A stretch of 18,033 bases of DNA, from NCBI GenBank assembly GCA_030620115.1, contig JAUXFG010000075.1:1-18033 (forward strand), given 5' to 3'. Positions 1,767-17,689 of the stretch are shown here, piece after piece. Below the pieces are notes generated by a model, which was not told the origin of the DNA, searched no databases, and saw only the letters and a list, made by a program, of their open reading frames with translations. This stretch comes from Candidatus Fermentibacterota bacterium. Lineage in GTDB: Bacteria; JAFGKV01. The first letter of the stretch is position 1, and each line of letters starts with the position of its first letter. Made by a program: the position numbers and the translations under genes.

Positions 1767-3677
1767 ATGGCTGCGAAAGAAACTTTGAAAGCGTATAGCC
1801 CTCTTTCGCGCCTCCTCGTCTTGCTCTCCGGGGTGTGGCTTCTTCTACGTCAGGCCTTCCAAGGTATCCTGGAATCCAGCTCCGTGGCGGACGGGGCCGC
1901 CTTGGTGATCTGCAGCCTGTTCGTGCTCTGCTTCGCCCTCGGTTTGACTTCTTTCGCCCTGCGACGGATGATCCTGGCTTCTATTGTCCTGACCGTCGGG
2001 CATTTCGTTCTTCTCCTTTCTGCCGATGCCCCTGAGTTCGTGATGTGGCTTGAGAGCGTGCGTCTATTCGTTGCCAGGATATCGCCCCTCGTTGGTCTGG
2101 TAGCGATTGTGCTGGCGTGGCGTCCGGGAATGAGGGCTGAGGTGATGCTCTCTCCGGTGAGATGGTGGATGTCTCTTCCCCGGGCCAAGTATGTACTCGG
2201 AGCCTCGCTCCTGGCGTTTCTCAGCACATTTCTCATGGCCAGATTCGCATATACCTGCATGCCAAGGTCATACGATGGGATTGCCAACATCTTCCAGGCT
2301 CGGATTTTTGCTTCAGGGCGACTCACTCTTCCGTCGCCCCCTCACCCAACGGCATTCTTGCATTTCGGTCTAATTCAAGAGCCGGCTTGGTGTTCCTACT
2401 ATCCACCGGGATACTCCGCAGTGCTGGCCATTGGCCTGCTCCTTGGATCAGTCTGTCTGGTGAATCCGATCCTTACTGCGTTGACCGTTCCCGCCCTTGA
2501 GAGAATAGCATTCAGGCGCTTTGGCAAGCCTGCGGCGGCTTTGACCGTCTTGATGTTCGCCCTTTCACCGTTCGTCCCCATTGTTGGCGCGTCGTTCAGA
2601 AACCACGCGCTTGCCTTGTTTCTCCTCGCCTGGTCTACCGCCATGCTTCTGGATCCAACTCGGAAACGACGCAGGCTTGTGCTATCCGGAGTGCTCGGAA
2701 GTGCGGCATTGCTTGCCAGGCCGTATACCGCTTTTCTTTGGGGCGCCGGCCTCTTTGTCGGGGTTGCTCTGGATCGTCGAAGAGAGTTCTGGCACATGCT
2801 ATGTCCATTTGTTTTGGGGGCCATTCCAGGGCTAACCATTGCAGTTCTCTACAATCTTATGCAGACAGGCGGGAGTCTGGACCCTCCTCCCGTGTATCTG
2901 TACGGTAAGGAATTCGGCCTTGGTTTCGGCCAAAGAGTGATGGGCGATCACACTCTGCTAAGGGCGATCTCATTTACCACGACCCGAATCGAAGGGCTCG
3001 GAAGAATGGTCTTGGGGTGGCCGTTCCCTGTTGTCCTCCTCCCGATTGCAGTGGCCTTCCTGGGGGGATGGCGATCCATGATGAAGATACGGCTATGGGT
3101 AATGGTCCTCCCGCCCCTGTTTTTGCTTCTCGGCTATGCGAGGTTTTGGTTCCTCGAGTTTTCCCATGGCCCTAGGTTCCTCTACAGCGCTCTCATCACA
3201 TTGCTTCCCATGACTGCTCACAGCATGCTGGTCCTTCCCCGAAAGATCGAGAATATTCTCCCCCCGGGCCTGAGACGATCGGCGGGTCCTATGCTCACGG
3301 GCGCCGTCTTGCTGTCTATCTTTTACAGTCTACTTGTCACGTGGCCTCATGCAATCCGCATTTTTGGCGATAACTACGGCTGCCAGGTGGATCTGCCGGA
3401 TCTGGCAAAGACCCTTCCCCCGGGCGAGAAGCTGATCTTCTTCGCTCCCATCACCTCGCAGATCTCTGACTATGGCTGGGGCTTCCTCATGAACGACCTG
3501 GAGCTCGACGGCGAATTCGTCGTGGCCTTCGACTATGGAGAGAAGCAGAATGCTGAGGTCATGGCGCTCTTCCCGAATAGACAGGTCTACTATTACTCCT
3601 ATGACCTGGGGAAACGAAAAGGATCCATTCGACCTATCTCACAGGCTAGCATCCTGCCGCGTGGGAAGGGGCAGTGA
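1767..3677 (+). CDS. Polytopic membrane glycosyltransferase, GT-C / GT39-like
   Basis: This 636-residue protein has about a dozen hydrophobic helices and a short soluble C-terminal part (about 540-636). After the helix near 145-162 comes a loop with RSYDGIANIFQARIF (Asp170) and then YYPPGYSAVLAIG (211-223). This layout, an acidic residue in the first large outer loop followed by a proline-rich YxPPGY segment before the next helix, is typical of GT-C enzymes of the ArnT/PMT type, which move sugars from polyprenyl-phosphate donors on the outer face of the inner membrane. Donor and acceptor cannot be told. The ATG at 1767 has only a weak GGGATG upstream. No polysaccharide genes are adjacent. An uncharacterised polytopic membrane protein remains possible. 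Confidence 0.75.
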   Translation: MAAKETLKAYSPLSRLLVLLSGVWLLLRQAFQGILESSSVADGAALVICSLFVLCFALGLTSFALRRMILASIVLTVGHFVLLLSADAPEFVMWLESVRLFVARISPLVGLVAIVLAWRPGMRAEVMLSPVRWWMSLPRAKYVLGASLLAFLSTFLMARFAYTCMPRSYDGIANIFQARIFASGRLTLPSPPHPTAFLHFGLIQEPAWCSYYPPGYSAVLAIGLLLGSVCLVNPILTALTVPALERIAFRRFGKPAAALTVLMFALSPFVPIVGASFRNHALALFLLAWSTAMLLDPTRKRRRLVLSGVLGSAALLARPYTAFLWGAGLFVGVALDRRREFWHMLCPFVLGAIPGLTIAVLYNLMQTGGSLDPPPVYLYGKEFGLGFGQRVMGDHTLLRAISFTTTRIEGLGRMVLGWPFPVVLLPIAVAFLGGWRSMMKIRLWVMVLPPLFLLLGYARFWFLEFSHGPRFLYSALITLLPMTAHSMLVLPRKIENILPPGLRRSAGPMLTGAVLLSIFYSLLVTWPHAIRIFGDNYGCQVDLPDLAKTLPPGEKLIFFAPITSQISDYGWGFLMNDLELDGEFVVAFDYGEKQNAEVMALFPNRQVYYYSYDLGKRKGSIRPISQASILPRGKGQ

Positions 3678-3778: not shown

Positions 3779-4012
3779 TCAGTTCTTCTTTCGGATAAGG
3801 CGCAATGCGTCAGCGATCATGCGATTTGGGGATTTCTCGCAGTTGGCACGAATGTGCATTCGTGCATCGGAGTCACTGTTGTCCAGAATCGCTATCCCGC
3901 GTATTTCATGAGCATCATACGGCCAAACGTCCAACATCGAACGTTCAACGTCGAAATGCAAGAGAGCGAGGGGAAGAAACAAGGTCAGGTTCTTATCCGC
4001 AGCGCTTGTCAT
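3779..4012 (-). CDS. Short hypothetical protein, partly built from repeat DNA
   Basis: This 77-codon frame starts MTSAADKN and ends RLIRKKN. Its ATG at 4012 follows AAGGAG at a good distance of about 7 bases, which is the main reason to list it. Residues about 20-29 (FDVERSMLDV) are encoded by the inverted heptamer repeat 3926-3953. The ribosome binding site lies just inside the other heptamer tract (4034-4065), so the start sits between two opposed repeats. The second half (ILDNSDSD to RKKN) looks more like ordinary coding sequence and could be the 3' end of a decayed gene. No family is recognised. It may be a real small gene, a chimaera or chance. Confidence 0.3.
   Translation of the reverse strand: MTSAADKNLTLFLPLALLHFDVERSMLDVWPYDAHEIRGIAILDNSDSDARMHIRANCEKSPNRMIADALRLIRKKN
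3846..3865. repeat. Perfect 9-bp inverted repeat
   Basis: GCACGAATG, two bases (TG), then CATTCGTGC. It has no T-run after it, so it is not a standard intrinsic terminator. It lies inside the doubtful 3779-4012 frame. Confidence 0.6.
3926..3953 (-). repeat. Heptamer tract, inverted copy
   Basis: Read on the minus strand it is CGACGTT, GAACGTT, CGATGTT, GGACGTT in 7-bp register, the same family as 227-261. It faces the tract at 4034-4065. Confidence 0.7.
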
Positions 4013-4033
4013 AGTAATCTCCTTGCCTTGGAC

Positions 4034-4065
4034 GTTCGATGTTGAGCGTTGAATGTTGGACGTTC
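4034..4065 (+). repeat. Heptamer tract, direct copy
   Basis: The units are GTTCGAT, GTTGAGC, GTTGAAT, GTTGGAC and GTTC. With 3926-3953 it forms an inverted pair about 80 bases apart that encloses the start of the 3779-4012 frame. Confidence 0.7.
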
Positions 4066-4116
4066 TTCCCATAAGGCTCTCCCTCGTCACAGTAGAATCC
4101 CTTTTATTCTCACCGC

Positions 4117-4862: not shown

Positions 4863-5044
4863 GTCTGCCTCCTTGGATTCCCCAACATCTCTCTGCCCAT
4901 GTCGGCGTTTTGCCGCACCGAGATACCCTCATCATAAAAATGCAGCCCGAGCATACGGAGGTCAAGGACGACTACTAGGCCGAGGAGCTGGAGGAGGAAG
5001 ACATTGGGCACTTTGTGGGGCCACATCCTTCTGTCCACTACCAC

Positions 5045-5171
5045 TGTCATTCTGAGCGCCTTCAAGAAGCGAAGAATCTCTCCCTGCTCCTCGTTCCGTC
5101 ATCTAAACGCTCAATGCTTCCTTCTCCTCCCCACCCAGATTCTTCGGTCGCTTCGCTTCCTCAGAATGACA
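5045..5171. mobile_element. MITE of the TGTCATTCTGAG type
   Basis: The left end (5045-5079) starts TGTCATTCTGAGCG and ends GAAGAATCT. The right end (5137-5171) is its imperfect reverse complement: AGATTCTTC then CTCAGAATGACA. The outer 12 and inner 9 bases of the 35-bp ends pair exactly. The 57-bp middle has no coding capacity. Elements with TGTCATTCTGAGCGAAGCGAAGAATCT-like ends are known as short dispersed repeats in many bacterial genomes. No clear target duplication is visible. Movement would need a transposase supplied from elsewhere. Confidence 0.75.
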
Positions 5172-5194
5172 CTCAATCCCCCGATCCTTCCTCA

Positions 5195-5215
5195 CATTCG
5201 ACGTTGGGTGTTGAC
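5195..5215 (+). repeat. Worn heptamer tract
   Basis: CATTCGACGTTGGGTGTTGA is a short, diverged member of the heptamer family seen at 227-261. Confidence 0.4.
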
Positions 5216-5310
5216 CTGCCGTACGCCGCGCGATTGAGATTTTCCAAGATACCACCGAACCTGTCGCCTCCTCATGTGTTAGTGGGATGGAATGTGGAGG
5301 GATTGAGAAG

Positions 5311-5736
5311 ATGGGCAAGAAGTCAGACGTCGGACTCGTGAGAGCAGCACAGGGTGGTGATACTTCCGCCTTCAACGATCTGGTCAGGCGCCATCAGATC
5401 GGAGTCAAGATGGAAGCGATTCGTTTTCTGGGCAGCGTTGACGAAGCAGAGGATGTGACACAGGAGGCTTTTCTCAGAGCCTATCTGAAACTGTCATTAT
5501 TGCGGCCTCCATACAATTTTGGCGGTTGGGTGCGACAGATTGCCAAGAACATGGCGCGGAATCTGCTGACCAGAGGTCCCCGGCTTGTCGCTCTTGAACA
5601 ACAGCACCTCAATGATGAGCCCCAGTCTGTTCAGAGGCGGAGCCAGGAGGATTCGCTGGCTCAAGTGGAACAGGCAGTCCTGGCCTTGTCCAGACTGTCC
5701 CCAAAGGTAACCGTTCACGGGTTGAAAGGTTCATAG
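5311..5736 (+). pseudogene. ECF-type sigma-70 factor, truncated before region 4
   Basis: The first 132 codons are a clear sigma-70 region 2. They include LVRAAQGGDTSAFNDLVRRH, then VDEAEDVTQEAFLRAYLKL (the DxxQExF-like core-binding signature) and FGGWVRQIAKNMARNLLTR (the -10 recognition helix area). The linker to region 4 begins (LAQVEQAVLALSRLSPK), where an ECF factor should continue into the helix-turn-helix that reads the -35 element. At 5707 the sequence instead enters repeat DNA, adds ten unrelated codons and stops. The ATG at 5311 was chosen because GGAGG lies ten bases upstream. An in-frame ATG at 5287 is less likely. Without region 4 it should not act as a normal promoter-specific factor. 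No anti-sigma gene is adjacent. Confidence 0.85.
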
Positions 5737-6299: not shown

Positions 6300-6541
6300 C
6301 CAGAAACTTCATCCAGAACTTTGCTTGCCACGCCGACTGGTCACGGCGCATCCGCCAGGAGAAGACGGAAGCCATCCGACGAAGGCGGGTCCCGAACTTC
6401 CCCTTCCTCGTCCCAATAACCTCCTCCCAAAACTCTGTCCCCAGCTTCGTCAAGCCGGGTTTCTTCCATGAATGGTCCCGCCGATGGCTGGTGAGAAGTC
6501 CGGGATAACAGCCAGCTCTCTACTCCGACATGAATCTCGCG
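6300..6541. other. Gap with a decayed element-E copy
   Basis: There is no gene. The right end at 6488-6508 is a good element-E terminal repeat (TGGTGAGAAGTCCGGGATA). A worn left end may be CCCGAACTTCCCCTTCCTCG near 6391, which would give a degenerate element of about 120 bp. The rest (6300-6388, 6509-6541) shows nothing recognised. Confidence 0.45.
6488..6508 (+). repeat. End of element E upstream of the four-gene operon
   Basis: CTGGTGAGAAGTCCGGGATA is nearly identical to the right ends of copies 2 and 3. It lies 34 bases upstream of the operon promoter. Confidence 0.7.
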
Positions 6542-6570
6542 TTGACAAGGTACCCTACGCATGATAGGGT
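6542..6570 (+). promoter_or_regulatory. Sigma-70 promoter, extended -10
   Basis: TTGACA (6542-6547, perfect -35), a 17-base spacer and TAGGGT (6565-6570) preceded by TGA, an extended -10. Transcription would start near 6577, about 23 bases before the GTG at 6600. It would drive the four-gene membrane operon. Confidence 0.6.
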
Positions 6571-6585
6571 GTGCGCACTCAAGAG

Positions 6586-6591
6586 AAGGAG
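6586..6591 (+). promoter_or_regulatory. Ribosome binding site that fixes the GTG start at 6600
   Basis: AAGGAG lies eight bases before the GTG at 6600. The in-frame ATG at 6561 has no such site and falls within the promoter -10 region, so it cannot be the main start. Confidence 0.75.
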
Positions 6592-6599
6592 AGCGGCGC

Positions 6600-7754
6600 G
6601 TGATTGTTCTGTTTTGTGCATTCCTACTCATCGCTGATTCCACGCAGTGCGTTCTCCTGCCTACGCCACCGCCTACTGTCATGGATGTCCCAAATGATAA
6701 CGGGCACGCCCTGGACATCACCTGGGAACCATCACATGCTGAATCTTCAGGGCTTGTCACCGCGTATGAAGTATGGCGTAGCGAATCGCGAACCGGGCCA
6801 TTCGAGCTAAGGGGAGCTACCCCCCCTGGTCTGTGCGAGTATAGAGACAGAGGCGACAAGGATCCTGCTTCTTCCAACCACTTTCCATCCGGAAGACCCT
6901 ACATCTATTTCATCAGAACTGTCGGCAAGAACGAACAGGCCGATTCGCGCTACAGTGCGGAAGTCGCCGCAACCGGGCAGTGGTACCACAAAGGGAAAAC
7001 CCCGGTTCTCATTGGGACATTGTTGTTCTCCGCCCTGGCGCTCTACTTCGTGCAGATTGCACGGAAAGGGAAGAAGCTCTACATACGCCCCTTGGCCGGC
7101 ATATCCGCTGTTGACGAGGCCATCGGCCGCGCCACAGAGATGGGTAAGCCCATTCTCTACCTTCTGGGAAGCGGAAGCGCCTCAGGCATCGCCACCATCG
7201 CGTCGTACGCAATCCTTGGCCGAGTAGCAAGAAAGACAGCCGAGTACAGAACGCGGCTCATGGTTCCCTGCAAAGACCCCGTAGTCATGACCGTTGCCCA
7301 GGAAACCGTGAAGGGCGCCTATGCGGAGGCTGGGCAGCCTGACGCCTACGATGAGGACAGCGTCTTCTACATAACCTCCATGCAATTCGCGTTTGTGGCC
7401 GCAGTCAGTGGTATCATGCTGAGAGAGAAGCCTGCCACGAACTTCTACATGGGCAGCTTCTATGCGGAGAGCCTCTTTCTTGCCGAGACCGGCTCCAGTG
7501 CGGGGTCTATTCAAATATCCGGTACCGAACAGGTGGCTCAGATTCCATTCTTTGTCGTAGCCACAGACTATACGCTGATTGGCGAAGAGCTGTTTGCCGC
7601 CAGTGCCTATCTAGGCGGTGATCCCTTGCTGTTGGGTACTCTGAAAGCGCAGGACTACGCCAAGGCTGTCCTCATGTTCATCCTCGCCGCGGGAGCTTTG
7701 TCGATAACTCTGGGATGGAGCTGGTTTGCCCAACTCTTCAAGGTGGCTCTGTAG
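6600..7754 (+). CDS. FN3-domain membrane protein with DUF6754-type domain
   Basis: This is the first gene of a four-gene operon. The 384-residue product begins with a signal peptide or N-terminal anchor (VLFCAFLLIADS). A fibronectin type III-like domain follows (about 25-125, with ALDITWEPS, TAYEVWRS and YIYFIRTV), then a membrane helix (136-153). Next is a long domain starting VDEAIGRATEMGKPILYLLG that I recognise as DUF6754-like, a family of unknown function. A second helix (about 354-376) closes the protein. The N-terminal FN3 domain is probably outside the cytoplasm and the DUF6754 domain on the other face, though topology is inferred. The stop codon overlaps the next start by one base (TAGTG), which indicates translational coupling. 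Confidence 0.8.
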   Translation: MIVLFCAFLLIADSTQCVLLPTPPPTVMDVPNDNGHALDITWEPSHAESSGLVTAYEVWRSESRTGPFELRGATPPGLCEYRDRGDKDPASSNHFPSGRPYIYFIRTVGKNEQADSRYSAEVAATGQWYHKGKTPVLIGTLLFSALALYFVQIARKGKKLYIRPLAGISAVDEAIGRATEMGKPILYLLGSGSASGIATIASYAILGRVARKTAEYRTRLMVPCKDPVVMTVAQETVKGAYAEAGQPDAYDEDSVFYITSMQFAFVAAVSGIMLREKPATNFYMGSFYAESLFLAETGSSAGSIQISGTEQVAQIPFFVVATDYTLIGEELFAASAYLGGDPLLLGTLKAQDYAKAVLMFILAAGALSITLGWSWFAQLFKVAL

Positions 7755-8371
7755 TGAAGCGGCAGGTCCCACTCGCTCTGGTATTCATCACGGGGATGCT
7801 GCTTGTTATTCAGTACTTCGTACCGCACGATTACTCGGAGTTCCTCTATGAGTACTCGTTGGACTGGGTGATCGTCATCGGGATATTTGCCACTGCTCTG
7901 GGCCTATGGAGTCTCGTGAAGGTGACGACCGGCAAGGTCCATCGTCGCCAAAAAGGCTGGGGTTACTCAGTAGTCACTCTGGTAGGCTTGGCGGTGATGT
8001 TGTTCGCCGGGCCGATCTGGGGAATCGAAGAAGGCACCATTTTCATGAAATTCTTTTGGTATATCTATACCCCAATCCAGTCTACCATGTTCTCCCTCCT
8101 TGCGTTTTTCATTGCGTCCGCGGCGTACAGGTCCTTCAGGGTGCGATCGCTGGTTGCCACCGTGCTCCTCGTCTCCGCCCTTGTGATCATGATGAGGCTC
8201 ATTCCTATAGGTCCTTTCTCGAACTTCAATCAGACACTGGCCGGTTGGATTCTCTCCGTTCCCAACATGGCGGCCAAGAGAGCCATTGCCATGGGTGTAG
8301 GGTTGGGCGCCATGGCCACCGCACTGAAAGTTGTCACCGGCATCGAACGTTCCTACCTGGGAAAGGATTAG
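7754..8371 (+). CDS. Six-helix membrane protein of the DUF6754 cassette
   Basis: The 205-residue product has six predicted membrane helices, roughly 4-22, 36-56, 70-90, 107-125, 133-151 and 175-195. The best preserved-looking part is the fourth helix and its loop, FFWYIYTPIQSTMFSLLAFF followed by IASAAYRSFRVRS. Few charged residues lie inside the helices, so an ion channel or classical carrier is not suggested. GTG at 7754 is the natural start: it overlaps the previous stop, and AAGGTGG lies just upstream (7739-7745). It is probably a membrane partner of the DUF6754 protein. I know of similar proteins only as hypothetical genes beside DUF6754. Confidence 0.8.
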   Translation: MKRQVPLALVFITGMLLVIQYFVPHDYSEFLYEYSLDWVIVIGIFATALGLWSLVKVTTGKVHRRQKGWGYSVVTLVGLAVMLFAGPIWGIEEGTIFMKFFWYIYTPIQSTMFSLLAFFIASAAYRSFRVRSLVATVLLVSALVIMMRLIPIGPFSNFNQTLAGWILSVPNMAAKRAIAMGVGLGAMATALKVVTGIERSYLGKD

Positions 8372-8380
8372 CCGGAACAG

Positions 8381-9208
8381 ATGTCTATCCACGAGAAGCT
8401 CTTGTCAATCGACCGGCGGTGGATATTCATCGTTCTTGGGATCTCAGTGGTCGCACCTGTTTTTGTGCGGTTTTCCGTGCCGATCCACATTACTGACGAA
8501 GTGAGGTCGGTTCACGAATTCGTGGAGGATACGAAACCCGGTGAGATCATCTTCTTGGCCATCGATTATGATCCCCAAACCATGGCAGAGCTACACCCAA
8601 TGACCTACTCCATCATGAGACAGTGCTTTGGCAAAGGGATAAAGCTTATCATCTCGGCGCTCTCACAGAATGGTCCAGGCATGGCCGAACAAGCAATAGG
8701 AGAGATTGCGCGGGAGACCGGCGCCGTAAACGGAGAGGACTATGCATATCTGGGTTATAAGCCATATTTCGGTATAGTCATTCTGGCCATGGGTCAGGAT
8801 TTCCGTATCCCGTTCCCCGAAGACTACTACGGTACCCTACTGGATTCGCTCCCCATGATGAAAGGCGTACGCAACTACGACGACATTCGTGGCGTACTAG
8901 ATATATCAGGCGGCAACATAACCGACTCCTGGATTGCATATGCGAATGGGAGATATCAGGTGCCTGTGGCTTTGGGTGTGACGGGCGTCATGGCCTCAGA
9001 CTACTATCCCTTTCTGCAGTCCGAGCAAATATTCGGCATATTGGGCGGCATGAAGGGCGCGGCAGAGTACGAGATGCTTTGTCATAGAAAAGGCCCCGCG
9101 GTAGAAGGGATGAAAATCCAGACAGTAGCCCACAGCGTCATCATCGTCCTCATCCTGCTGGGGAATGTGGGATACTTCATCGCTCGACGAAAAAGGCAAG
9201 GGTCATGA
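8381..9208 (+). CDS. Double-anchored Rossmann-like membrane protein of the cassette
   Basis: The 275-residue product has one helix at each end (about 13-32 and 251-268) and a soluble middle of about 215 residues. The middle reads like an alternating alpha/beta fold. It has a strand ending in an acidic loop (IIFLAIDYDPQTMAELHPM, 56-74), then GKGIKLIISAL and YAYLGYKPYFGIVILAMGQD. PEDYYGT, NYDDI, WIAYANGRYQVPVALGVTGV and FGILGGMKGAAEYE follow. The IDYDP and GGMKGAAEYE segments are the most likely functional sites, but no catalytic set could be matched to a known enzyme. The start is ATG at 8381, ten bases after the previous stop, with a weak AAAGGA site. The last four bases overlap the next gene (ATGA). 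Confidence 0.8.
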   Translation: MSIHEKLLSIDRRWIFIVLGISVVAPVFVRFSVPIHITDEVRSVHEFVEDTKPGEIIFLAIDYDPQTMAELHPMTYSIMRQCFGKGIKLIISALSQNGPGMAEQAIGEIARETGAVNGEDYAYLGYKPYFGIVILAMGQDFRIPFPEDYYGTLLDSLPMMKGVRNYDDIRGVLDISGGNITDSWIAYANGRYQVPVALGVTGVMASDYYPFLQSEQIFGILGGMKGAAEYEMLCHRKGPAVEGMKIQTVAHSVIIVLILLGNVGYFIARRKRQGS

Positions 9209-9825
9209 GCAGCGCCGAGCTTGTTTGGAATGGTCTTGCCGCTTTTTTCACGCTTTGCGTTTTTTCTTTTCTGTACAAGGACAATCCATTCTATCGCTTT
9301 GCCGAGCATATAGTTGTTGGTGTTTCCGCCGGCTATTTCGCGATTATTCTCTACTACAATGGATTAGTTCCAAAACTGATCAATCCTGTCTTCCATCAAG
9401 GGAAACTTCACTACATAGTTCCAGGGCTCTTGGGCCTCCTGATGTGGACTCGATTCTCCAAGAAGTGGAGCTGGCTCTCGCGCTATTCCATTGCCGTGTA
9501 CATGGGAGTAGCAACCGGTGTGGTGATACCGCTCTATATGTACACCCACATCCTTCGGCAGGCCGAAGCGACCATGGTCCCCATCGGATTCACGAGCCTT
9601 CCTCTGATCAACAATCTACTGGTGTTGATTGGTGTGCTTTCAGGACTCGTCTATTTCTTCTTCTCAAAGGCCCATACCGGCGTGTTCGGGGCGATCTCAA
9701 GGGTAGGAATACTCGTGCTGATGATCGGGTTCGGCGCAGGGTTTGGGCTCACGGTCATGGGCCGAATTTCCCTCCTTGTGGATCGTATTCTCTTCCTTAG
9801 GGACTATATCAGCCAGCTGTTCTGA
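9205..9825 (+). CDS. Second six-helix membrane protein of the cassette
   Basis: The 206-residue product has about six membrane helices (8-24, 34-52, 68-84, 92-115, 133-152, 165-186). A marked segment, LYKDNPFYRFAEHIVVGVSA, spans the first loop and the start of the second helix. Its start overlaps the end of the previous gene (ATGA at 9205), the usual sign of co-translation. It closes the operon: the next coding sequence is on the other strand and is broken. The protein is unrelated by eye to the other six-helix protein (7754-8371). Two different polytopic proteins therefore accompany the FN3/DUF6754 and Rossmann-like partners. No function is known to me. Confidence 0.8.
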   Translation: MSSAELVWNGLAAFFTLCVFSFLYKDNPFYRFAEHIVVGVSAGYFAIILYYNGLVPKLINPVFHQGKLHYIVPGLLGLLMWTRFSKKWSWLSRYSIAVYMGVATGVVIPLYMYTHILRQAEATMVPIGFTSLPLINNLLVLIGVLSGLVYFFFSKAHTGVFGAISRVGILVLMIGFGAGFGLTVMGRISLLVDRILFLRDYISQLF

Positions 9826-9836
9826 CCTGAATATCT

Positions 9837-9855
9837 CATGAGAAGTCCGGGCTAA
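9837..9855 (+). repeat. Solitary end of element E after the operon
   Basis: CATGAGAAGTCCGGGCTAA matches the right terminal repeat of copy 3 in its core. It begins 11 bases after the stop at 9825 and lies between two converging genes. Confidence 0.65.
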
Positions 9856-9870
9856 CCTGGACTACCAGGA

Positions 9871-10297: not shown

Positions 10298-13200
10298 CTA
10301 ACGGATGACCACTATCTTCCCCGCTTTCTTGCCGGCCGCGCTCAGAACGTGGTAGAGATAGACACCACTGGAGACTGTGCAGCCATTCCGATCCCGACCG
10401 TCCCATTCCACCACGCCGTCCGCGTTCCACTCCTGAAGCGAAGCGATGCGCCGCCCGGCAAGATTGTAGAGGTGAACAGTCGCATCCCTTGGTGCGCCGG
10501 TGAAGCATATTGTCGTGCCTTCAGCCACCCTCCAGGGGTTAGGAACGGGTTCCCAGGAATCAAGATCATCGGCAAAGAAGTATAGCCCGATACTGTCACC
10601 TTCCCCCGGCTTGATCCGGTTTCCATGGATATCTTGAGCGTCTTGAATGGTCAGCACATATTGCGCGCCATCAAGCATCGAGGGGGGAGTCACCAATAGC
10701 CTGAATTCTCTCGGGTCGGCGCTGCTGCGATGGAACTCGAGAATCTCGAGGGGTGGATTGAATGCGAGATTGTCCGACGCAAGGAGACTGTCAGGAGTAC
10801 TGTTGAAACAGACAGATATCCAGCCATCTCCCTGGTAGGCTGCCTGCGCAAGGTAGAAGGACGTCTCCCGTCTGATCACGATCTCTACTGCGGTATCAAA
10901 CGGAACGACTACACCAGTCGTGTCTTTCACCCCTTGAATACACAGAAGATAAAAACCGTCATCCTCCGGAAAGGAGCTGAATGCCAGAAGTACCCCTTGA
11001 TTCTGATGAGTCAAAATGGCGGAGCTTGGGGTGAATGGGCCGGGTTCCAAACGATAATGACCAGGTTCTTTGGCACTGTTGTCATCCAGCGGTTCGTTGA
11101 ATTCGAGAGCAATATGGGAGGGCGGAACGCAGGTTGCGCTGAGGAGTTCAGGAGGGGTATTGGTCGCCACCGAGACGGGATAGCTGAGGGCTCCTTCGGA
11201 TGGCGTTGAAGAACTATCAATAGTAGCCACTGAATACCAGTAGTCCACATGAAGTTCCAGTCCGGAGTCCAGGAACTCCGGAGGATCAACGATTATTATT
11301 GGTTCCAACTGATCCGGTGCCCGCCCGCGATAGACCCTATAGCGGTCTGCGCTCACCACCGCTGACCACTGAAGCATCACGTCGGTTGAAGAGATTGGCG
11401 TTGCCTTCACAAAGCCGGGAGGTTGCGGGCCGGGGAAGGCCCCGGGAGCACGAAATACGGTAGAGTGATCGGGGAAACTAATGACAAGTTCGTTGCGAGG
11501 ACCTTCGGGGCCTACGGCGCCATCCAGGTCAGCAATGATCACTGCGGGTGAGCTGGCGCCATGGCAGTACCAGAAGACTGCCAGGCTATCTCCAGCCTCC
11601 TGATAATCAAATACATAGAAGTCGGGGTAGGCGCAGACAGCAATCTCATCATCTCCATCTCCATCAAGATCTCCTGCTCCAAGGCCGTTTTGACCTGTAC
11701 TCGTGATCACGCCGAACAGCACGGTCTCCCAGAACGGCTGGAGCTCTGCCCCATTGCTGCGGAATCCCACTAGATTCCAACGCCGCGCATCGAAGTTGTG
11801 TTCGAGATTGAGATTCTCGGCAAGTCTGCACATACCGACCAGCTCGTCCACTCCGTCCCCGTCGAGATCGGCGGCGACTACTGAATGCGCGCAGCCTTGT
11901 TCGCCCAAGCTGCTACTGCCGGCCCAACAGAACTCAAACTCGTTGTCTGCCACGGACTCAAACCCTATGAAGCTGCCTTTATCCTCACAGAAAACGACCT
12001 CTCTACGTCCATCTCCGTCGAAGTCTCCGGAGGTCATGCCTCGCAGAACGAAGTTTGACGAGTGATCCACCGGGTTCCACAACGTATCGACGACAGCCAA
12101 GGAGTCATTTGCCACGGCCTCTTGAACGAGGATCGCCTTGTGGGGATAGATCCCTTGAATGATGGAGTAGATTTCTCCCCATCCATCGCCATCAGCATCC
12201 GACATACCCACAGCCAAGACATGTGATGAGTCACCCCACGCCAGTCTGCTCGGGAACTCGCCCGGCCCTGCAGATTCCCAGCCGTAATGGCTGAACACGT
12301 TCGTTGATTCGGCAACGAGAGGGACATAGTAGGTTCCCAGGATTTCGATAAGCCCGTCTTGATCTGCATCTCCGGCAGAGAGGGGATACATCTGCATGGC
12401 GCCACATGGCACTTCAGTGATTTCCAAGGAAGAGCTTGCTTCGAAAATCCGCATTGGTCCCAATGTGGTTTTCCCGGCGTTTCCAAAAGGTATCATCTCG
12501 CCGATCACGATTTCATGAAGGCCGTCATTGTCGAAGTCCGTTATGTCCGGAGTTAGATAGCCGGGCGGCAGTGTTTCTACTACGGGATCGAGTGTTGCAT
12601 ATCCAAGGGGCGCTCCGGAGATCGACACCCGATAGAGTAATCGGCTGTTATCTTCAATAGACTCGAGCCCCGCGGTGTTGGTTGCAGACACAAAAAGCTC
12701 CCACGAACCAGGGCCCGGGATCTCTGGCCCAATGAGCCACCGGTGCCATGTGGTCTCGTACTTCAAGGGGTAGACATCGAAATCCTCAGTGGAGTCTGCT
12801 TGCCTCATGTGTACGGCGGCTGATGTGATATCGTCTGTGGTGAATTCCAGAAGATGGTGCCAGTAAGGCCCCTCCAAGACCGTGGTGAGCGTCACCGGTT
12901 CAATCTCAGGAGGAGTACGATCGATCCAGACCGGAATCAATCGTTCGACCTGCACTCCGGCGTGATCCGTGGCAACGATCCGTAACATCTGTCTGCCGTC
13001 AGCAACGTCGTCAATGTGCCAGATTGCCAGAGTGTCGTGTACTACCTGCCTGGCATCCTCTTCATGTATCTGAAACCAGATGATTGGATTGTCCCCATTC
13101 CCGTACGAGAGTTCCCAGTACTCCAGCCCGAGCCCCGCCACGGTCCCGACGATGGCCGCGTCGTGGTAGAGCCCGGAATCAGAGCGCGGCTCATCGATTT

Positions 13201-14656
13201 CAATCCTCAGAGTCTTGTCAATGGCAAGACTGTTCGGGATGTCAATTCGACCTGCGCCGTAATAGCTGTCGCGTCCAGGTGTGCCAAGGTCAATGGCGCC
13301 TGTTTGAATCGCAAACCGAATCTCTTCATTAGAGAACTCAGGATGCAGGGACCGCACCAAGGCGGCAAGACCACTCACATGGGGAGCAGACATCGACGTG
13401 CCGCTAAGCTTCCGATACGAGCTGTCTCTTATTGTACTCATTATTTGGCAGCCCGGCGCCACCACATCTATGGTTGCGCCGTAGTTGGAGTTGCCGGCGA
13501 GATGGTCGTTGCTGTCACTATTGCCCACTGAAAGGGTCTGATCATACCCCGATGGATAGTGAATCGCATCAGTGGCGGAATTGCCGGCAGAGGCTACAAG
13601 TACACAGCCGCTCGCATGGGCATACTCCAGCACATCCTGTATAACCGGTGATACGACCACATCCCCCCAGCTCATGTTGATAACAGCTGCGCCGTTCTGC
13701 GCTGCGTACACAATGGCCGAGGATACATCATCCTCTTGGAGGTAGCCAGAGGCTCCCGCTCGAAGTGCCATTATCCGACATCCTGGCGCTACTCCCGCGA
13801 TGCCGATCCCATTGTCAGCAACCCCACAGGCGATCCCCGCCACATGGGTCCCATGACTGCTTCCGCTCTGGTCCATGGGATCGTTGTCTCGGCCAGTGTA
13901 GTCACCATCGCCCGGGAGTTCAGGGGAATCGGTAAAATCCCACCCCACGACATCATCTATAAAACCGTTTCCGTCATCATCAACACCATTGAGGTCGCCG
14001 CCCTCATCCTCAGGCATGGCATCAAATATGCCGTTCCCATTGACATCTTCTGCCGCATTGATCCAGATGTTCTCAGCCAGATCGGGGTGCAAGTAGTCGA
14101 CGCCCAAGTCTACGACTGCCACGATCACCTCTCTGCTCCCACGCTCGATGGACCATCCTTCTCTTGCCCGGATCTTTTCGAGGCCCCATTGCTGGGATTC
14201 GAGGGAATCAAGGGAGGATTCTGAAGCCAGAATCCTGTAGGAGTGATTGGGGACTACATATTCGATCTTGTCATTGCTCTTGTAGATGGCAATCGCGGCG
14301 TTCAGAGATGAACCTGGTTGCAGGCTGACTGCGCAAATCCTGGAGAGCCCCGAGGCTTCGAACAAGGGATCCGGACCGCCGCGTGGTGTCTTCAATAGGG
14401 GAGTCGCTCTCCTGGCCCTGGCTTCTCGGTGAAGGGATGCTCGGGGGCTCGATTGGTCACCATCTCCGTCGGCCCAAGGCTTGGCGGAGCTCCCCGCTTG
14501 CTCAGTGAACTTGACCAGGAGTTCCTGCCCATGTGCGTTCTGCACCACAAGAAGAACCGTGAGCCACAAGAAAAACCAGCTGATACTCATAAAGCTCAGA
14601 AAAGATAGAGGCTTGTTCTCCCCGTGATTGGATAACTTGAAAGAAAAGATCCTCAC
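10298..14656 (-). CDS. Secreted subtilisin-family (S8) serine protease with FG-GAP, FN3 and FlgD-like tail
   Basis: The product is a very large exported protease of 1452 residues. The order is: signal peptide (core about 26-38, likely cut near AHG-Q at 43), propeptide region (about 45-150) and S8 domain with Asp183 (AVVDLGVD), His268 (GSSHGTHVAG), oxyanion Asn359 (ASAGN) and Ser421 (GTSMSAPHVSG). The domain carries an acidic NGVDDDGNGFIDD insertion (223-235) like a calcium-binding loop. Six FG-GAP-like DxDxDG motifs follow (about 705-1020), for example DLDGDGVDEL. An FN3-like domain (about 1080-1165), Ig-like domains (about 1170-1365) and a C-terminal FlgD-like domain (about 1378-1452) complete it. 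The latter has VHLYNLAGRRI, WDGRDRNG and SGVYLYHV, as in T9SS-type sorting ends. The GTG start at 14656 is supported by AGGAGG. A TTG 63 bases upstream is less likely. Confidence 0.93.
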   Translation of the reverse strand: MRIFSFKLSNHGENKPLSFLSFMSISWFFLWLTVLLVVQNAHGQELLVKFTEQAGSSAKPWADGDGDQSSPRASLHREARARRATPLLKTPRGGPDPLFEASGLSRICAVSLQPGSSLNAAIAIYKSNDKIEYVVPNHSYRILASESSLDSLESQQWGLEKIRAREGWSIERGSREVIVAVVDLGVDYLHPDLAENIWINAAEDVNGNGIFDAMPEDEGGDLNGVDDDGNGFIDDVVGWDFTDSPELPGDGDYTGRDNDPMDQSGSSHGTHVAGIACGVADNGIGIAGVAPGCRIMALRAGASGYLQEDDVSSAIVYAAQNGAAVINMSWGDVVVSPVIQDVLEYAHASGCVLVASAGNSATDAIHYPSGYDQTLSVGNSDSNDHLAGNSNYGATIDVVAPGCQIMSTIRDSSYRKLSGTSMSAPHVSGLAALVRSLHPEFSNEEIRFAIQTGAIDLGTPGRDSYYGAGRIDIPNSLAIDKTLRIEIDEPRSDSGLYHDAAIVGTVAGLGLEYWELSYGNGDNPIIWFQIHEEDARQVVHDTLAIWHIDDVADGRQMLRIVATDHAGVQVERLIPVWIDRTPPEIEPVTLTTVLEGPYWHHLLEFTTDDITSAAVHMRQADSTEDFDVYPLKYETTWHRWLIGPEIPGPGSWELFVSATNTAGLESIEDNSRLLYRVSISGAPLGYATLDPVVETLPPGYLTPDITDFDNDGLHEIVIGEMIPFGNAGKTTLGPMRIFEASSSLEITEVPCGAMQMYPLSAGDADQDGLIEILGTYYVPLVAESTNVFSHYGWESAGPGEFPSRLAWGDSSHVLAVGMSDADGDGWGEIYSIIQGIYPHKAILVQEAVANDSLAVVDTLWNPVDHSSNFVLRGMTSGDFDGDGRREVVFCEDKGSFIGFESVADNEFEFCWAGSSSLGEQGCAHSVVAADLDGDGVDELVGMCRLAENLNLEHNFDARRWNLVGFRSNGAELQPFWETVLFGVITSTGQNGLGAGDLDGDGDDEIAVCAYPDFYVFDYQEAGDSLAVFWYCHGASSPAVIIADLDGAVGPEGPRNELVISFPDHSTVFRAPGAFPGPQPPGFVKATPISSTDVMLQWSAVVSADRYRVYRGRAPDQLEPIIIVDPPEFLDSGLELHVDYWYSVATIDSSSTPSEGALSYPVSVATNTPPELLSATCVPPSHIALEFNEPLDDNSAKEPGHYRLEPGPFTPSSAILTHQNQGVLLAFSSFPEDDGFYLLCIQGVKDTTGVVVPFDTAVEIVIRRETSFYLAQAAYQGDGWISVCFNSTPDSLLASDNLAFNPPLEILEFHRSSADPREFRLLVTPPSMLDGAQYVLTIQDAQDIHGNRIKPGEGDSIGLYFFADDLDSWEPVPNPWRVAEGTTICFTGAPRDATVHLYNLAGRRIASLQEWNADGVVEWDGRDRNGCTVSSGVYLYHVLSAAGKKAGKIVVIR

Positions 14657-14925
14657 CGTGGTTCCTCCTGTCAGCTGTCTACTCCATCTATCCGTCGGAA
14701 CAAGAAGTCTTTTCACCAATTAATGAGAGGCAATTTCAGCTCGGCTTGCCCTCATGCTTCACATCGATGGCTCCTCTCCTGCAATCCCCAATCATAAACC
14801 CTGAACTATGGATTGAGGATTCAAAAGGGAGTCGGGCCAGGGTTCAAGGCGAGAGATGCGCGGGAGATGAATGGTTCACCAGGTCATGGACGCAGCCCGC
14901 ATATTCCGTGAAATGCGCGGGTCAG
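14657..14925. other. Spacer between the two exported-protein genes
   Basis: The 269 bases between the FG-GAP gene and the protease gene (both minus strand) hold no gene. Near the protease start lies its ribosome binding site. No convincing terminator with a T-run was seen, so read-through from the FG-GAP gene into the protease gene is possible. Confidence 0.5.
14664..14669 (-). promoter_or_regulatory. Ribosome binding site that fixes the protease start
   Basis: On the minus strand this reads AGGAGG, seven bases before the GTG at 14656. Neither the longer TTG start (14719) nor the internal ATG that begins MSISW has a comparable site. Confidence 0.75.
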
Positions 14926-16230
14926 CTATCGTGTGGTCATCAGTTCGAAGTCGTGCTCACCAACGCGGTTGGAGATCGCGAGTATCTGATCGGCGCCACG
15001 GACCGCCACGAGGACGTATGTCCAGTTGGAGTCGGGCTCGTCAATACCGTTACCTATAGAATAGGAGTCCCACCCAGAGGATAGAATCGCCACTCTGTGC
15101 TCGTAGGGGGGAGTGAGCCCAGGCTCAAAGTAGGCGTGGTTGTTTGCCCCATACAGCCAATATGCCAAGGCAGGTACAATGGGTGTCCAGGTCAGGGCAA
15201 TTTGCCCGCTTTGGTAATCACCCCAGAGCAGTAGGCCCGGTGTGTAGATGTAGGCCCGTCCCGCACCCATCGGAGCGAGCCCCGGGTCCTCGTGAGGCGC
15301 GCCCACGATGATATCATCAAGGCCGTCTCCATTCGAATCTCCGACTCCGGCAGCGGCATATCCGAAGTTACCGTTCTCTTCCTCATTGGGAGAGAGGAGA
15401 GCGTAGAGAAGATCACCACTGGTTCCGCTGAATACATAGGCTCGGCCGGCTTGTGCGGGGCTCATTGCAGGATCTTCATGGCAGGCGCCCACGACGATGT
15501 CAGGGCAACCGTCACCGTCCAGGTCTCCCCCGCCGGAGACTGAAGATCCGAAAAAACCGTTCTGTTCCGGATTGGGAGACTGGAGTGTGCGGAGAAGTGT
15601 TCCCGTGGCTCCGCTGAAGATGTAGGCGAGTCCTGCATGGTCAGGACCCGGGCCGGTCTCGAAGGGAGCGCCCACGAGAATGTCGGGGCATCCATCCCCG
15701 TCTACGTCCTCAGTGCCGGAGACCGAACTGCCGAAGTGACCGGCAGCTATTTCATTCGGGGACTGAAACTCGTGGATCAAATCCCCGGTACTCCCACAGA
15801 AGAGATACGCTTTCCCCGCGAAATTCGGGCTGGAGTCGGAATACTCCCACGCGGCGCCGACGACCACGTCCTGGAAGCCGTCACCATTGGTGTCCCCTAT
15901 GCCTGAGACGGAAGTGCCGAAATGACCCGAGGCCTGCTCGTGGGGAGAGGAGAGGGTTAAAATGGACGAGCCATCCGAGCCGCTGAGAATGTGAACGCGC
16001 CCCGCACCTGTCGGGCCTGGAAACGGGCTCTCACCCGGGGCATTCACGATGAAGTCTGGGTTTCCGTCTCCATCTATGTCCCCGACTTTGGATATCGAAC
16101 CACCGAACCCACCGCCCTGTTGCTCGTTTGGTGAACCAACGGTGAGCAACAACCCCATCTCGTCAGCGGACACGTCCTGCATCACCAAGACAAAGACGAC
16201 AATCATAAGCACTCTGGTAAATATCGTCAT
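14926..16230 (-). CDS. Secreted FG-GAP repeat protein (integrin-alpha-like propeller)
   Basis: The 434-residue product has a signal peptide (VLMIVVFVLVMQDVSA, cut near 22) and five FG-GAP repeats. Their calcium-loop motifs start at Asp51, 113, 175, 236 and 298 (DIDGDGNPDF, DTNGDGFQDV, DVDGDGCPDI, DLDGDGCPDI, DSNGDGLDDI), a spacing of 61-62 residues. Each repeat has FGxSVSG before the loop, (V/N)GAP after it and a YxFSG strand. A C-terminal beta-sandwich-like part (about 336-428) follows without an obvious FlgD-like tail. FG-GAP blades form calcium-binding propellers that usually mediate binding outside the cell. The ATG at 16230 is fixed by AGGAGG six bases upstream. The frame could start 30 bases earlier but has no site there. 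Five blades are fewer than the seven of a closed integrin propeller. Confidence 0.88.
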   Translation of the reverse strand: MTIFTRVLMIVVFVLVMQDVSADEMGLLLTVGSPNEQQGGGFGGSISKVGDIDGDGNPDFIVNAPGESPFPGPTGAGRVHILSGSDGSSILTLSSPHEQASGHFGTSVSGIGDTNGDGFQDVVVGAAWEYSDSSPNFAGKAYLFCGSTGDLIHEFQSPNEIAAGHFGSSVSGTEDVDGDGCPDILVGAPFETGPGPDHAGLAYIFSGATGTLLRTLQSPNPEQNGFFGSSVSGGGDLDGDGCPDIVVGACHEDPAMSPAQAGRAYVFSGTSGDLLYALLSPNEEENGNFGYAAAGVGDSNGDGLDDIIVGAPHEDPGLAPMGAGRAYIYTPGLLLWGDYQSGQIALTWTPIVPALAYWLYGANNHAYFEPGLTPPYEHRVAILSSGWDSYSIGNGIDEPDSNWTYVLVAVRGADQILAISNRVGEHDFELMTTR

Positions 16231-16236
16231 CACGGG

Positions 16237-16242
16237 CCTCCT
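16237..16242 (-). promoter_or_regulatory. Ribosome binding site of the FG-GAP gene
   Basis: It reads AGGAGG on the minus strand, six bases before the ATG at 16230. It decides the start in favour of MTIFTRVLM over the upstream MRTGRLRR. Confidence 0.75.
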
Positions 16243-16340
16243 AAGCCTACCAGTTCGCATTCTTCATCAACAATATCCTGCCGCTTTATCGCGACAGCCG
16301 ATCAGGAATGCGGGCTGGGATTCTTGTAGTTCTCCTCAGC

Positions 16341-16390: not shown

Positions 16391-16578
16391 TGACCCGGAT
16401 TTCTTACCGGCTTTCGAAGCGAAGCCGCCGAGATTGCTCTGAATGCGAGGCTTGCGACCGAGGACCCCGGCTCTGTCAGGGCGTAGCCTGGCTCCGCCGT
16501 GGCGTAGCCCGAAGGCGTATCCTCTGTCCCGCGTCGGACGCGGGACTGCAGCCGATAGTTGGTGAGAAGTCCGGGTTA
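16391..16578. mobile_element. Element E, copy 2 (complete, 188 bp)
   Basis: The left end TGACCCGGATTTCTTACCGG is the imperfect reverse complement of the right end TTGGTGAGAAGTCCGGGTTA. A 69-base internal block (16456-16524) matches 17931-17999 of copy 4 with one difference. A TCCCGCGTC / GACGCGGGA hairpin lies near the right end. There is no transposase. The ends run to TA (TG at the left), as expected of elements that use TA targets. Confidence 0.8.
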
Positions 16579-16609
16579 GCATTGCGTCATTTGTCACGAT
16601 CTGGTACTC

Positions 16610-17412: not shown

Positions 17413-17651
17413 TAGCCCGAACTTCTCACCAGCCTTCGTCGCAAAACGGCTGCGGTGGTATTGCCTGCAAGGCCTGCGACCGAGGACGGCTGAAGGCGTA
17501 TCCTCTGTCCCGCGTCTGACGCGGGATCGAGGAGGCTGCTTGTCACGTCGTAGCCATCGCGAAGACGGAACGAAGCGTAACGAAGTCCCGCGTCGGACGC
17601 GGGATGCCTTATCGGTGGTTGCAGCCGAAAGCTGGTGAGAAGTCCGGGCTA
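17413..17651. mobile_element. Element E, copy 3 (complete, 239 bp)
   Basis: The left end TAGCCCGAACTTCTCACCAG pairs with the right end CTGGTGAGAAGTCCGGGCTA at 19 of 20 positions. Both ends terminate in TA. Two TCCCGCGTC / GACGCGGGA hairpins occur inside (near 17507-17525 and 17585-17603). The right 98 bases match copy 1. It is longer than copy 2 because it carries both the copy-1-type right part and an extra middle segment. It begins 25 bases after the DUF3795-type gene. Confidence 0.85.
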
Positions 17652-17689
17652 GCCCGCATTCTTACCAGCGAAAGTGTAGATCTCCAAGC

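Follow-up and report, generated by a model that had tools for sequence, protein, structure and literature searches.

A stretch of 18,033 nucleotides from contig JAUXFG010000075.1 of a Candidatus Fermentibacterota bacterium (assembly GCA_030620115.1; 4.1 Mb in 296 contigs; G000 in our sample), hereafter the window, carries four same-strand open reading frames (ORFs) at 6561-9825 (+), which we term genes A, B, C and D. A sequence-only reading of this DNA had proposed that they form, behind a strong promoter, a membrane cassette around a DUF6754-type protein, and that the cassette belongs to an undescribed system. The elements of the cassette are listed below; TM denotes a transmembrane segment, and invariant or conserved residues are taken from family alignments and numbered in the window proteins.

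6542..6547, +: TTGACA, a perfect -35-like hexamer, partnered by the -10 candidate TAGGGT at 6565-6570 (three of six matches); as a promoter, unproven
6561..7754, +: gene A, comprising a signal sequence or TM1, an FN3-like region (about 6669-6990), TM2 (about 6996-7058), DUF6754 (6972-7739) and TM3, assigned from the PF20539 match and the pattern of TMs and charges
6586..6591, +: AAGGAG, read directly from the DNA, the likely ribosome-binding site for GTG 6600
6972..7739, +: DUF6754 domain of A, predicted cytoplasmic, with invariant R190, E193, R288, E303, E309, Q318, E342, D365 and K368
7754..8371, +: gene B, a six-TM protein with both termini predicted inside and invariant R126 and R176
8381..9208, +: gene C, a TM, a Rossmann-like extracytoplasmic domain and a second TM, with invariant E70, P73, G125, G219, E231 and N262
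9205..9825, +: gene D, a polytopic protein, five of its TMs clear and a sixth probable, with invariant N27, E34 and R187

The genes are packed exactly as had been claimed, with a 1-base overlap between A and B, a 9-base gap between B and C and a 4-base ATGA overlap between C and D. Gene B starts at a GTG, backed by the MKRxIPL start that the family alignment shows to be conserved. Translation of A probably begins at GTG 6600 rather than at ATG 6561, so that the first 13 residues of the 397-residue reading would be untranslated. The strong promoter did not hold up: the -35-like hexamer is perfect, but the hexamer 17 nucleotides on departs from consensus at half of its positions, and a promoter consensus scan detected no site where chance alone would give 2.8.

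An 18-base motif, TGAGAAGTCCGGGNTAAC, flanks the cassette on both sides (window 6492-6509 and 9839-9856) and recurs at 16563-16580 and 17636-17653, with further window copies near 83 on the plus strand and two on the minus strand. The genome holds 113 copies with at most one mismatch, compared with none for a reversed-pattern control. The motif is frequently preceded immediately by GCNGCCGANAGYTGG, suggesting a longer dispersed intergenic repeat.

Predicted architecture of the four proteins

Protein A is a clear member of the DUF6754 family (PF20539), matching it with an E value of 5e-112 over residues 138-393 (373.6 bits against a curated cut-off of 27; profile positions 2-257 of 257). The FN3 half of the earlier FN3-plus-DUF6754 description is weak in the window copy (E 0.18) and clear in relatives, 8 of 43 of which match FN3 (best 2.3e-11); the A family profile likewise matches solved FN3 domains in the PDB, and nothing else there. 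Family-averaged hydropathy and charge predict the order TM1, outside FN3, TM2, cytoplasmic DUF6754, TM3. The suggestion that FN3 contacts something outside the cell agrees with the positive-inside rule, which places FN3 there, but this region is not part of the core: some relatives of A lack FN3 altogether (266-292 amino acids) and in others about 600 residues are added, marking FN3 as accessory. The DUF6754 part has the look of an alpha/beta domain on the cytoplasmic side. It holds unusually many invariant charged residues (all the invariant positions listed above except Q318), in keeping with an active or ligand site.

Protein B has six predicted TM helices, in agreement with its earlier description, and the profile comparison detects no relation between B and D, so that B as a relative of D was rejected. 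In D five TMs are clear, and the sixth that had been assigned to it, near residues 33-55, falls below the prediction cut-off and is only probable. Protein C, previously described as Rossmann-like and anchored at both ends, carries one predicted TM at each end of a domain of about 210 residues, with the N terminus inside, the domain outside and the C terminus inside. The AlphaFold model of C is an alpha/beta Rossmann-like domain (predicted template modelling score (pTM) 0.67; predicted local distance difference test score (pLDDT) 67). Both this model and that of A, which is poor (pTM 0.33) and was not used for a fold search, are shallow because their alignments comprise only the window and L049 sequences (n = 4). 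The best structural comparison for C, with transhydrogenase domain III (Z 6.4), does not rise above the usual background, and Foldseek returned nothing at E <= 0.001. A and C are both predicted to be TM-alpha/beta-TM proteins, though hhalign on the trimmed domains gave no match, and we rejected them as paralogs.

The segments IDYDP and GGMKGAAEYE, singled out earlier as a ligand site, are among the most conserved of C (D62, Y63, P65, G223, G226, A227, E229 and Y230 in at least 90% of sequences; E231 invariant; D64 less conserved than D62), which makes ligand binding by C plausible. No Pfam or NCBIfam family matched B, C or D, and sequence-profile searches of the PDB with these three proteins returned nothing significant. 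Conserved cysteines are absent from the conserved columns of B and D, as is any conserved SGAT-like flavin-attachment motif from the A and C alignments.

Recurrence of the cassette and its soluble partners

We surveyed 386 bacterial genomes together with 14 well-known control genomes, reading the cassette order with profiles built from fetched loci and taking the co-occurrence counts from genome lists transcribed by hand. DUF6754 is present in 102 of the 386 genomes, spanning 67 families, and in none of the controls. The order A-B-C-D is kept in 60 of 74 A copies read (36 genomes, 33 families), and several of the 14 exceptions are contig ends or overlaps in the simple ORF caller. Gene C occurs in 103 genomes, and A and C occur together in 100 of the 105 genomes with either, at identities to the window A-D proteins of about 30-55%. 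The cassette therefore recurs in dozens of families, far more than chance allows; the gene-neighbour conservation that had been proposed as a check is evident, and none of the four families matched a characterised transporter, enzyme or secretion part.

The four proteins also co-diverge as a unit. Across 63 complete cassettes their distance matrices correlate pairwise at rho 0.56-0.65, compared with at most 0.23 after random relabelling; when paralogs were swapped within genomes, no pair reached its observed value (maxima 0.45-0.56). Together with the conserved order, the co-occurrence and the lack of a characterised match, this strongly supports the earlier proposal of an undescribed membrane complex recurring as hypothetical proteins.

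The window cassette is one of seven in its genome, which has seven A and seven C copies; five other contigs carry A-B-C-D in order. A lone A on contig C207 (L035) and a lone B-C-D on contig C122 (L038), possibly one split cassette, keep the counts of A and BCD equal. Three cassettes lie head to tail at L077/L049. The window cassette stands at a mean distance of 0.43 from cassettes of other families (G298 and G159) but at 0.48 from the nearest of its paralogs, L032. The closest relatives of L033 and L036 lie outside their own family, in G137. Either the paralog classes are old, then, or cassettes have been exchanged between lineages. Searches for A and C in viral contigs, A in plasmids and C in phages were negative, leaving a mobile or phage origin unsupported. 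No common cargo gene stands beside the cassettes among the paralog loci examined. In three genomes a divergent class at about 30% identity (L037, L042 and L047) has an SH3-domain membrane protein before it and a very large histidine kinase-like protein after it.

Upstream of A in many families lie three further genes, encoding c3 (about 130 amino acids), a GlmL/MutL-family protein (about 600 amino acids; PF13941, E about 1e-125) and c1 (about 375 amino acids), in the order c3-GlmL-c1-A-B-C-D; G010 has all seven in one run as c3-A-B-C-D-GlmL-c1. Of the 98 genomes among the 386 with c1, 97 are A-positive, and A and c1 coincide in 97 of the 103 with either (Fisher P = 5e-84, uncorrected for shared ancestry). 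The full set of A, C, c1 and GlmL is found in 95 of the 386 genomes, from 62 families. In seven genomes examined (the window's own G000, G381, G254, G242, G117, G353 and G083), a single fusion protein of about 950-1035 amino acids combines GlmL and c1. The window genome encodes c3-GlmL-c1 on contig C105, apart from the window cassette, and up to seven cassettes are found in genomes with one or two c1 genes. A fused GlmL-c1 of 985 amino acids (L118 8632-11589; G000 contig C160) stands besides the separate C105 copies as a second, divergent energising module.

The long GlmL is of the ASKHA type, with actin-like phosphate motifs (DCGSTTTK and DIGGATTD) and 61-69% identity across families; these motifs and its family membership mark it as a putative ATPase. 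The N-terminal domain of c1 is an RnfC/NqrA-like (RnfC_N/NqrA_N) barrel-sandwich. Sequence-profile searches of the PDB with c1 and GlmL found nothing significant. In four genomes the gene before c3 encodes a small PH-like membrane protein (n8). In the window's phylum (L117 and L119) a histidine kinase lies after c1 and an NtrC-type sigma-54 regulator two ORFs on.

Glycine-cleavage genes lie near c3-GlmL-c1 in at least eight families. On contig C105, c3-GlmL-c1 stands directly behind GcvT, GcvH, GcvP (GcvPA-GcvPB) and a lipoate ligase, and in seven genomes GcvP lies 4.7-5.5 kb from c1. GcvP occurs in 97 of 102 A-positive genomes (95%) compared with 199 of 284 A-negative ones (70%; P = 2e-8, likewise uncorrected). 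Five carriers lack GcvP, and in most carriers examined the glycine-cleavage and system neighbourhoods are not adjacent.

A candidate ATP-linked complex and its rivals

The best-supported statement is that A-B-C-D together with GlmL, c1 and c3 constitute one machine. The sequence-only reading had recognised an undescribed system, and missed the predicted cytoplasmic position of DUF6754, the three soluble partners and the seven cassettes in the genome. With about seven components, strong conservation and up to seven copies per genome, the system occurs in about a quarter of the 386 genomes, and to define it is to supply a list of components, a predicted topology and an energising module that can be tested.

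How the machine might work is a matter of even odds: it may be an ATP-linked inner-membrane complex in which A-B-C-D form the membrane core and a cytoplasmic GlmL/c1 module drives or gates transport. B and D would make up the membrane body, and C would bind a ligand on the outer side. The GlmL/c1 module would dock on the cytoplasmic DUF6754 domain, a route suggested by the topology, by the order of the genes and by the presence of many cassettes per c1/GlmL set. By binding or hydrolysing ATP, GlmL could then drive or gate movement across the inner membrane, be it of a solute or of the complex itself. ATP-driven transport is in this sense a guess from the two polytopic subunits and the ligand-like external domain. 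That one GlmL/c1 module serves several cassettes suggests membrane parts that can be exchanged, each with its own ligand, around a shared source of energy, and the recurrent glycine-cleavage and lipoate-ligase neighbourhood makes an amino-acid or one-carbon ligand the first guess. More tentatively, and with the balance somewhat against it, we propose a new class of energised complex, in which a GlmL-type actin-like ATPase and a barrel-sandwich adaptor drive interchangeable A-B-C-D units, of paralog classes predating the present bacterial families, in uptake, export or mechanical work.

Several points weigh against an ATP-linked transport complex. A few A genes are solitary, and four A-positive genomes (G060, G079, G219 and G257) have neither c1 nor GlmL, so that the membrane part may work without them. 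The flanks of the paralog cassettes are diverse and indicate no single substrate. Related genomes are not independent, which bears on the co-occurrence P values, and the contacts among the proteins, the ATPase activity and its coupling to transport are predictions.

Unlikely, yet the strongest of the alternatives, is a trans-membrane sensor that transports nothing: the C domain and FN3 would bind an outside ligand, and B and D would relay this to DUF6754 for signalling through GlmL/c1 or a kinase. The histidine kinase and NtrC-type regulator that follow c1 in the window's phylum favour it, as do a large histidine kinase after D in C5-type cassettes and a protein kinase or SpoIIE phosphatase downstream elsewhere. 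Such regulators are restricted to few lineages, however, and two strictly conserved polytopic subunits exceed the usual needs of a sensor. Less probable again is a membrane component of glycine or one-carbon metabolism that belongs specifically with the glycine-cleavage system, such as a glycine-linked transporter or an enzyme complex dependent on lipoyl groups. The GcvT-GcvH-GcvPA-GcvPB and lipoate-ligase flank and the enrichment of GcvP in carriers point that way, and relatives of GlmL are located in amino-acid mutase operons; against it stand the carriers without GcvP, the mostly separate neighbourhoods and the absence of a lysine from the lipoyl site of the c1 barrel.

A redox-driven ion pump of the Rnf/Nqr type is very improbable. 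The c1 barrel-sandwich, the two polytopic subunits with an extracytoplasmic domain and the weak likeness of the C fold to the NADP-binding transhydrogenase domain would suit such a pump, but that likeness is within the noise of such comparisons, c1 has no NADH/FMN (Complex1_51K), SLBB or iron-sulfur domain matches, and the conserved cysteines of B and D and the SGAT-like motif of A or C are missing. Adjacency by inertia without joint action is scarcely credible given the order kept in 33 families, the co-divergence, the near-perfect co-occurrence with c1 and GlmL and the gene fusion.

Elsewhere in the window, RsgA (620-1642) is followed downstream by a PMT_2-type membrane glycosyltransferase (1767-3677). 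A dispersed repeat with 61 genome matches occupies 3900-4090, where the called ORFs are probably spurious, and a second repeat family with 83 matches, often adjoining pieces at contig ends, lies at 5020-5250. A sigma-70 region 2 protein at 5287-5736 (E 1.6e-11; no region 4 match) is perhaps a truncated or frameshifted sigma factor of the extracytoplasmic function type. On the minus strand, a 1473-amino-acid subtilase with FG-GAP repeats and a secretion-tail-like C terminus (10298-14719) adjoins an FG-GAP repeat protein (14926-16260).

Comparison with known systems

On sequence comparison the system appears undescribed, A-D having no characterised family match beyond the accessory FN3, though a known transporter fold might yet emerge from good structures of B and D. 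In a literature search from whose coverage most subscription journals and preprints fell outside, we found no mention of DUF6754, PF20539 or PF13941, and nothing on this system under GlmL. A belongs to DUF6754, but that family has no assigned function, and the partners B, C and D are without a Pfam or NCBIfam model. With Rnf/Nqr the system shares the barrel-sandwich domain of c1; it differs in having neither redox domains nor the B/D cysteines, and homology to any other Rnf subunit was not found. ABC (ATP-binding cassette) transporters differ in that A-D, c1 and GlmL have no ABC_tran match, and ABC genes are merely occasional neighbours. Membrane assemblies with an actin-like ATPase, such as PilM-PilN-PilO, resemble it by analogy only, as a cytoplasmic ASKHA-type protein with inner-membrane proteins bearing external domains; we found no sequence relation, and in the loci examined, though no genome-wide search was made, no recurrent pilus or secretion neighbours of the PilN, PilO, PilB or PilC kind.

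B12-dependent amino-acid mutases have accessory proteins of the GlmL/MutL type (PF13941, NF040745 and TIGR01319), with which the partner ATPase shares homology along about 470 residues (E 3e-70). The partner scores 237 bits against the NF040745 equivalog cut-off of 475. Genomes with only the short, mutase-type GlmL of about 460 amino acids (for example G052, G080, G109, G197 and G325) have neither c1 nor A-B-C-D, whereas the protein described here, at about 600 amino acids, sits with both, an association that would, for the first time, place DUF6754 and the long GlmL in a functional context.

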